Positions 22,374 to 49,806 of a DNA stretch of 64,000 nt are shown here, piece after piece (within the stretch, counting starts at the first letter, position 1; every line of letters begins with the position of its first letter). A program made the position numbers and the translations under genes. The notes under the pieces were generated by a model, which ran no database searches, was not told the DNA's origin, and saw only the letters and a program-made list of their open reading frames with translations. This stretch comes from Plesiomonas shigelloides (lineage in GTDB: Bacteria; Pseudomonadota; Gammaproteobacteria; Enterobacterales; CAMTGL01): contig NZ_LT575468.1 in the NCBI RefSeq assembly GCF_900087055.1, positions 372,001 to 436,000 of the forward strand, in the 5' to 3' direction.

Positions 22374-22750
<377 letters not shown>

Positions 22751-48502: not shown

Positions 48503-48530
48503 TTGCCGAACGCTGAGTATCGCGTATGAT
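48503..48530 (+). promoter_or_regulatory. Candidate guaC promoter
   Basis: TTGCCG (48503-48508) and TATGAT (48525-48530) are 16 bases apart, with an A-rich stretch upstream (48479-48495) that could be an UP element. Transcription would start near 48537. Confidence 0.6.
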
Positions 48531-48536
48531 GTGGTA

Positions 48537-48706
48537 TTGGAGTGTCCGCTCCACGTACCATGCGAAACACAGTAGCAAAACTGCAATTTATTGCATGGTG
48601 ATTATTGTCCGATAATCACAGCAATATAACGACTATCTCCGACTGCCTGAGGATCGGCTAAAATCTACAGCGGCCGGAAATACAGAAGAAAAGGATTACT
48701 TATTTA
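48537..48706 (+). promoter_or_regulatory. Structured 5' leader of guaC
   Basis: Three hairpins follow the candidate start: TGGAG-TGTCCG-CTCCA (48538-48553), TGCAA-TTTA-TTGCA (48582-48595) and TGATTAT-TGTCCG-ATAATCA (48599-48618). The first and third have the same six-base loop. About 90 unstructured-looking bases and an AAGGA site lead to the ATG. I do not recognise a known riboswitch. Confidence 0.5.
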
Positions 48707-49747
48707 ATGCGTATCGAAGAAGACCTGAAGCTTGGCTTCAAAGATGTTCTGATCCGTCCGAAGCGCTCTACATTGAAGAGCCGTTCAGAGGTTACATTGG
48801 ATCGGAATTTTACGTTCAAGCATGCGGGTTGTCAATGGTCTGGCGTACCTATTATCGCTGCCAATATGGATACCGTAGGCACCTTCGGCATTGCTGCTGC
48901 GCTGGCGGGCTTTGAAATGCTAACCGCAGTTCACAAACACTACACCACCGAGCAGTGGGCCGCCTTTGTGGCTGCGCAGCCGGCTGAGGTGTTGAAGTAT
49001 GTGATGGTGTCGAGTGGTACCTCCGATCAAGATTTTATCAAACTGCAAGAAGTGCTGGCGCTGAGTGAGGCGTTGAACTTCATCTGTATCGATGTAGCCA
49101 ACGGTTACTCCGAGCATTTCGTGGCGTATGTACAAAAAGTGCGTGCAGCGTTCCCGAACAAGGTGATTTGTGCCGGTAACGTGGTGACCGGCGAGATGGT
49201 CGAAGAGTTGATCCTCTCCGGTGCGGATATCGTGAAAGTGGGCATTGGCCCAGGATCGGTGTGCACCACGCGCGTGAAAACCGGTGTCGGCTATCCACAG
49301 CTGTCGGCCGTGATTGAGTGTGCGGATGCCGCGCACGGTCTGGGTGGCCAGATTGTCAGCGATGGCGGCTGTACTTGCCCGGGTGATGTGGCGAAAGCCT
49401 TCGGTGGCGGTGCAGACTTTGTGATGCTGGGCGGCATGCTGGCGGCGCACCAAGAGTGTGAAGGACGCTTGCTGGAGCAAGATGGTCAGACATTCATGCA
49501 GTTTTACGGCATGAGTTCCGATACCGCAATGAACCGCCATGTTGGTGGCGTAGCGCAATACCGCGCCTCAGAAGGTAAAACCGTTCTGCTGCCATTCCGT
49601 GGTCCGGTGGAAAATACTGTGCGGGATGTATTGGGCGGCCTGCGTTCGGCTTGTACCTATGTGGGGGCGGCTCGATTAAAAGAGCTGACCAAACGCACCA
49701 CTTTTATCCGTGTGGCAGAGCAGGAAAACCGCGTATTTAACGGTTAA
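48707..49747 (+). CDS. guaC: GMP reductase GuaC
   Basis: NADPH-dependent enzyme converting GMP to IMP with loss of ammonia, rebalancing purine nucleotides. The 346-residue product (347 in E. coli) has the IMPDH-like barrel, with catalytic Cys186 in [20 protein letters not shown], the [13 protein letters not shown] start and [14 protein letters not shown]. It lacks CBS domains, separating it from IMP dehydrogenase. It is transcribed alone, between a structured leader and a terminator. Confidence 0.97.
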
Positions 49748-49766: not shown

Positions 49767-49806
49767 AAAAAATCCCGCGTATCCTTAGGAACGCGGGATT
49801 TTTTTA
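49767..49806 (+). terminator. Terminator of guaC
   Basis: AAAAAATCCCGCGT and ACGCGGGATTTTTT flank a ten-base loop (TCCTTAGGA region), with a long T-run. Confidence 0.92.

Follow-up and report, generated by a model that had tools for sequence, protein, structure and literature searches.

Why should the messenger of a purine-recycling gene begin with one hairpin and, a little further on, display the same six-letter loop again on a second hairpin whose stem is unlike the first? The leader of guaC in the window (the whole stretch of 64,000 nucleotides that was analysed) raises this question. The gene's identity is well grounded: its product is a GMP reductase according to the NCBIfam models NF003470 (668 bits, cut-off 397) and TIGR01305 (640 bits, cut-off 492). 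Here we report that the two hairpins and their common loop are real and rare features of this leader, that a comparable arrangement with a covarying second hairpin precedes guaC in another group of genomes, and that both may serve a partner able to read the loops.

The guaC leader and its hairpins

The features considered here all lie on the forward (+) strand of the window:

48503..48530, +, guaC promoter TTGCCG-16-TATGAT (pattern scan, and conservation upstream of guaC)
48538..48553, +, hairpin H1, TGGAG-TGTCCG-CTCCA, at the likely mRNA 5' end (sequence; fold -7.3 kcal/mol)
48543..48548, +, hexaloop TGTCCG, copy 1 (in H1)
48556..48600, +, middle hairpin of the predicted fold, joining 48556-48565 to 48591-48600 and, in an inner stem, 48572-48575 to 48581-48584 (fold)
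48598..48619, +, hairpin H3, GTGATTAT-TGTCCG-ATAATCAC (sequence; fold -8.5 kcal/mol)
48606..48611, +, hexaloop TGTCCG, copy 2 (in H3)
48690..48695, +, Shine-Dalgarno-like AAAGGA (by eye)
48707..49747, +, guaC, GMP reductase, 346 aa (open reading frame; NCBIfam)

The promoter consists of a -35-like TTGCCG (48503-48508), a spacer of 16 nt and a -10-like TATGAT (48525-48530), and scores 9/12 in the pattern scan. That scan alone is not above chance, having returned 2 sites in the region against 0.9 expected; it is conservation that bears out the good promoter which a preliminary description of this DNA had placed before the leader. A strict layout, CGCAGTCTTG-N14-18-GYGTATGAT, is shared by the window with 62/80 named relatives, there too upstream of guaC, and a looser one, CTTG-N14-26-TATGAT, is found in 73/80. 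Because this layout is conserved, guaC transcription likely starts near 48536-48540, on the 5' side of the hairpins. At the other end of the gene, AAAAATCCCGCG...CGCGGGATTTTTTT (49768-49805) has by eye the look of an ordinary intrinsic terminator.

The two outer hairpins of the earlier description are present in the sequence and recovered in the predicted fold: TGGAG-TGTCCG-CTCCA with 5 pairs, and TGATTAT-TGTCCG-ATAATCA, whose stem extends to 8, one pair longer than had been claimed. Their loops are identical (48543-48548 and 48606-48611), their stems unlike, as had been noticed, and the distance from loop to loop is 63 nt. Each hairpin folds alone, with 2/200 (H1) and 3/200 (H3) shuffles folding as well, and in the predicted fold the terminal U and G of each hexaloop pair with each other, so that GUCC alone stays unpaired. 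The H1 stem is followed by CTCCACGTACC and has no U-run.

The middle hairpin that had been described, TGCAA-TTTA-TTGCA, does exist in the sequence (48582-48595), but folding prefers the larger, competing hairpin at 48556-48600 (-15.8 kcal/mol; 1/200 shuffles as stable), and the picture of a three-hairpin leader is therefore confirmed in part. The region 48537-48622 folds with z = -3.57, and the entire 170-nt leader is only mildly more stable than shuffles (z = -1.99, 3/200 as stable).

The feature is real and non-random. Two hairpins with unlike stems of at least 5 Watson-Crick pairs and the same loop of 5-8 nt arose in 0/20,000 dinucleotide shuffles of the leader, and when the window was cut into 751 overlapping tiles, just 2 showed a twin loop of 6-8 nt, both of them overlapping the guaC leader feature. 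Two copies of TGTCCG lie 30-60 nt apart at 19 places in the 3.4-Mb genome; the backward-read control pattern does so at 31, and the bare words thus show no enrichment. Stems at both copies occur in the guaC leader only (5 and 8 pairs), the other 18/19 places having 0-1 pair. Eleven of the 19 places have one common sequence, and the single one scanned (L307) contains ribosomal RNA genes. A repeat element was considered and rejected: the leader is single-copy, and its other matches in its own genome (E up to 10) are scraps of 14-24 nt.

Twin loops upstream of guaC in other genomes

GuaC is encoded in 90/247 genomes of the order at E up to 1e-100, the window genome included. A DNA search of 40 genomes found no homologue of the window leader, returning the leader itself and otherwise essentially the guaC coding region alone (8/39 relatives). 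The one same-genus genome compared, 75% complete, shows no guaC, and its only match, at 38%, looks like IMP dehydrogenase. Nor do other guaC leaders carry TGTCCG hairpins: within 300 nt upstream of the gene, 0/80 named loci have at least 4 pairs around TGTCCG (L012 has 3).

The arrangement, as distinct from the word, was sought with a strict rule that takes a loop of 5-8 nt and a stem of at least 4 Watson-Crick pairs within the 200 nt upstream of guaC. Twin identical loops were found in the window (1/1), in 10/18 leaders of the group designated f21 and in that of Photobacterium salinisoli (L089). Under the same rule none were found in f25 (0/18), f10 (0/11), f23 (0/1), f7 (0/1), f12 (0/1), f11 (0/7), f2 (0/11), f20 (0/5), f6 (0/1) or f18 (0/15), nor in any of the other 79 named loci. 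As its leaders match that of P. salinisoli, f21 is probably Vibrionaceae.

Deeper sampling of f21 gave 109 leaders, L089 among them, of which 106 were parsed and 3 were not. Here we used a looser rule (the same hexamer in H1 and in the second hairpin, H2, whose stem has at least 3 pairs with GU allowed), and by this rule 101/106 leaders display one hexaloop on both hairpins, CUGCCA in 99 and CUGCAA in 2. The stem rule discards nothing, since the hexamer follows H1 in 102/106 leaders and such a stem is present in 102/102. The f21 H1, AAAACCGGAGCGU-CUGCCA-ACGCUCCGGUUUUUUU, starts 4 nt past the -10 element and takes the form of an intrinsic terminator, a 13-pair stem and then about 7 U; 10/13 of its pairs are invariant across 75 sequences.

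H2 is of another character, a nearly fixed loop on a freely varying stem with compensatory changes. In 67 distinct segments the selection rule guarantees the first three pairs; beyond its reach, the fourth forms in 63 against 32.3 when shuffled, and the fifth in 50 against 28.5. In an alignment of 75 f21 leaders each of the 4 H2 pairs has changed on both sides and 98.6% of H2 cells are paired, and RNAalifold recovers H2 unaided. Double-change cells number 120 over the whole f21 structure, where 500 shuffles give 31.9 +/- 7.6 and slid versions 2-24, although two of five covariation measures were not above shuffles (pairs with changes on both sides, 5 vs 4.1; further pair types, 13 vs 12.3) and the relatedness of the sequences inflates the other three. 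For each of the two main f21 subgroups (28 and 37 leaders), H2 is predicted to lie within an additional helix.

The two loops also tend to change or disappear together. CUGCAA stands in both hairpins of two leaders from two genera (L162/G146, g21; L239/G271, g91). Six leaders have a readable H1 and no H2 twin (L231, L245, L262, L266, L316 and L317, with L245 and L316 near-identical and counting as one type), and five of the six also have no CUGCCA in H1. The exceptions are L208, whose loops are unlike (CUGACA in H1, CUGCCA in H2), and L317, which keeps the H1 loop on a stem with a mismatch and has no H2 hairpin. On the whole this is what would be expected if one partner reads both loops, and a joint loop change in two hairpins is an unusual kind of evidence for such a partner. 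The suggestion in the preliminary description that the loop is read thus draws partial support from relatives, the covariation being that of the f21 leaders (a nearly fixed loop, compensation in the H2 stem, the joint change to CUGCAA).

The unit keeps company with the gene. H1, with up to 3 mismatches, occurs in 294/329 f21 genomes; among 159 that were checked, it is present in 137/141 with guaC (the exceptions being G250, G253, G259 and G267) and in 0/18 without, and four genomes with two copies of guaC (G352, G364, G370 and G377) have two copies of H1. The leaders fetched and the coordinates listed are those in which H1 was observed to stand before guaC. An order-wide search of 295 genomes with a covariance model of the f21 leader (R1) scored 15 first-look candidates per genome; among the matches listed, those of at least 59 bits (22 in f21, 1 in f12) are all at guaC, which led us to reject a wider regulon among those candidates, and weaker matches are listed at many places. 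Pairs of the bare word CTGCCA, taken in 5 genomes, give very many matches, words alone without the flanks. From the co-occurrence of H1 with guaC and the R1 matches at guaC, the f21 twin-loop unit looks like a cis element tied to this one gene.

Does the window leader belong with those of f21? A covariance search with a model from related guaC leaders, the check that had been proposed, gave no such link: R1 matches the window at 3.9 bits at best on the guaC strand (E 0.32 in 501 bases) and at 4.8 bits overall, on the opposite strand, the 22 top f21 matches having 80.6-95.3 bits. We therefore reject direct membership by sequence. By architecture the window leader does resemble them, with identical 6-nt loops, unlike stems, a first hairpin at the likely mRNA start and a position upstream of guaC; the U-run that gives the f21 H1 its terminator form is absent. 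With architecture in common and sequence not, the two leaders may well work alike, the window leader being a candidate and not a proven member, and the twin loops could be either homologous or convergent.

Known RNA families offer no ready label. A scan of the window at the Rfam gathering thresholds returned RNase P only and no family at cut-off in the guaC leader, and Rfam 15 gave no family at cut-off in any guaC leader among 15 related loci (E up to 0.5). The RNase P RNA is of bacterial class A and lies at 22374-22750 on the + strand (328 bits).

What might read the loops

Based on these observations, we favour with moderate confidence a cis-acting leader whose two loop copies serve one partner, a protein or a ligand, and so change guaC expression. 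The mRNA would start with this regulatory leader, presenting the hexaloop at its very 5' end and again about 60 nt later; one partner would bind both copies, and guaC expression would change as a result. The partner may be a small ligand or a protein, for which GMP reductase itself or an RNA-binding protein that responds to purines would be the simplest candidates, and the outcome would be feedback control of guaC. In f21 the terminator form of H1 means that early termination could be the output; in the window, where no U-run follows H1, another output would be needed, either translation or the stability of the mRNA. The observations are compatible with a protein reader and also with loops that dock through a ligand, less so with a trans-acting RNA, and purine sensing by this putative switch is plausible. 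In known autogenous leaders, such as those of ribosomal proteins, a protein reads the RNA through hairpins; the guaC leaders are like these in being tied to one gene and in keeping the identity of the loop while the H2 stem is free. A literature search found nothing on RNA binding by GMP reductase.

Against this reading stand the differences between window and f21 in the loops themselves (UGUCCG and CUGCCA), in spacing, in the fold of the linker and in the U-run, such that the twin loops could be convergent; and the enterobacteria, the nearest GuaC relatives, are without twin loops altogether under the strict rule. A bolder version, tentative and on balance doubtful, is that the twin loops represent a new class of RNA switch, so far confined to guaC of f21 and of the window genome, in which the hexaloops dock around a purine ligand or bind GMP reductase, the GMP-to-IMP route senses its own supply, and the loops are replaced in concert, still matching as lineages diverge.

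Some other partners were tried and set aside. For pairing of the loop with the Shine-Dalgarno sequence, the window offers GUCC opposite GGAU as a possible match, but CUGCCA of f21 hardly pairs with AAGGA (by eye). GGA loops of the CsrA type lie on the minus strand, are two only, and by eye have no ANGGA context, which we take to be the CsrA motif. A partner in cis was sought as well, and the window has no exact anti-loop word.

A known RNA with a comparable plan is the guanidine-II riboswitch (mini-ykkC, RF01068), which likewise has the same loop on two hairpins of one leader with a linker between them. If the guaC hairpins were a tandem riboswitch in this manner, their loops would dock directly or through a purine-type ligand, and two hairpins with a common loop, a freely varying H2 stem and a position before one metabolic gene would all be in keeping with it, as would the joint change to CUGCAA, which creates a self-complementary UGCA core. 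We nevertheless hold it to be unlikely: by eye, CUGCCA (2 GC pairs) and UGUCCG (2 GC and 2 GU) are only partly self-complementary, with U-C mismatches, and no riboswitch family reaches cut-off in the window or the 15 related loci. We know of no purine aptamer that resembles the twin-hexaloop leader. Guanidine-II loops dimerise and bind the ligand (PMC5486947, PMC7544219) and are ACGR tetraloops (PMC5486947); the window and f21 loops are hexaloops before another gene, and two ACGR stem-loops are not found in the window, where both loops read TGTCCG. Pairing of the loops with a trans-acting small RNA or an antisense RNA strikes us as improbable, even though identical loops would suit a kissing partner and there is a conceivable source for one, a minus-strand sigma-70-like promoter within guaC (48835-48807, 11/12, TTGACA-17-TAAAAT) that reads towards the leader. 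The homologous site has a best match of 9-10 of 12 in 103/108 f21 genes, and codon choice there is unlike that of neighbouring codons (TTT in 106/108 at codon 35 and CGT in 105/108 at codon 42, against TTC in 92 at codon 37 and CGC in 98 at codon 33). Yet the match could follow from the protein sequence, an equally good one (9-11 of 12) is present in 11/11 genes of f10, a group without twin loops, and a full antisense RNA needs no identical loops. As for the complementary words, TGGCA, which complements most of the f21 loop, occurs in the first 200 nt of guaC in 46/109 cases, 41 of them at one place; the full TGGCAG is found there in 17/109 only and in 0/109 of the last 120 nt of the f21 leaders. 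In the window, neither the leader nor guaC contains CGGACA, the exact anti-loop, and for the two leaders of the CUGCAA type TTGCAG is nearby in L162 but not in L239.

Hairpins at the 5' end stabilise mRNAs, and H1 stands at the very 5' end of a leader for which no sequence relatives were found, so H1 might merely protect the messenger from decay, the second loop being shared by chance or through past local copying. This we judge quite unlikely: chance has to contend with 0/20,000 shuffles, copying with stems that differ and so are not a copied block, and both with the recurrence of the twin-loop theme before guaC in f21. It is highly improbable, finally, that the dyads are read as DNA, that is, as operator sites for a repressor. 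In favour of this, H1 of f21 forms an inverted repeat at the very start site that hardly varies, 10/13 of its pairs being constant in the 75 sequences; a DNA reader sees half-sites, however, and it is the loop that is constant while the H2 and window stems differ, with H2 pairing surviving changes on both sides. Our preference accordingly stays with a leader in which two loop copies serve one partner; such twin-loop leaders point to an undescribed RNA switch on a purine-recycling gene. As the f21 leader is strongly conserved, matches no Rfam family at cut-off and has an analogue in the window, control of GMP reductase through it is directly testable.

Leader structures at guaC in other lineages

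We found no account of a guaC leader in open-licence papers. A small-RNA sequencing study of Vibrio cholerae (PMC3136459) lists reads between guaC and its neighbour, without giving their strand relative to guaC there. Several lineages thus seem to have a structured guaC leader, each of its own kind.

Enterobacterial guaC leaders resemble the pyrC type, in which the 5' end of the mRNA pairs with the Shine-Dalgarno sequence. Among the L010-L088 and f18 loci, they have CTGG no more than 20 nt from the -10 element and CCAG at the Shine-Dalgarno sequence in 89/94 cases (3 have neither word, 2 only one), so that the mRNA start could, as a prediction, mask the ribosome-binding site. The window leader is like the pyrC type in having a structured 5' end before a gene of nucleotide metabolism, and unlike it in that both window and f21 use twin loops and the 5' arm of the window leader is predicted to pair locally; in place of the enterobacterial words the window has TTGGAG where the mRNA likely starts and AAAAGGATTAC in the Shine-Dalgarno region. 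One locus with neither word (L078) shows CCGAT at the mRNA start together with ATCGG in the Shine-Dalgarno region, by eye a possible compensatory swap.

Intrinsic-terminator attenuators offer another comparison, to which the f21 H1 is like, with its 13-pair stem and about 7 U, and the window H1 unlike, being without a U-run. Since H1 starts at the 5' end, no upstream anti-terminator arm is possible. A hairpin of this form directly at the transcription start is in an unusual place for a terminator, which suggests attenuation at an early stage.

Terminator-like hairpins with a U-run were also seen at the guaC start beyond the twin-loop setting: besides f21 (e.g. L139 and L140), they appear by eye in f25, f11, f12 and f7. 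In one f11 leader (L151) the promoter and terminator-like hairpin weakly match the Rfam entry suhB/mmgR (28.2 bits, cut-off 41, E 0.05), and L148 has a weak match to V_AS5 (43.1 bits, cut-off 96) upstream of the promoter. In 11 f2 leaders (L165-L167, L169 and L172-L178) GCACAG at the start can, by eye, pair with CTGTGC before the start codon, enclosing a hairpin of the form AACCC...GGGTTTT.
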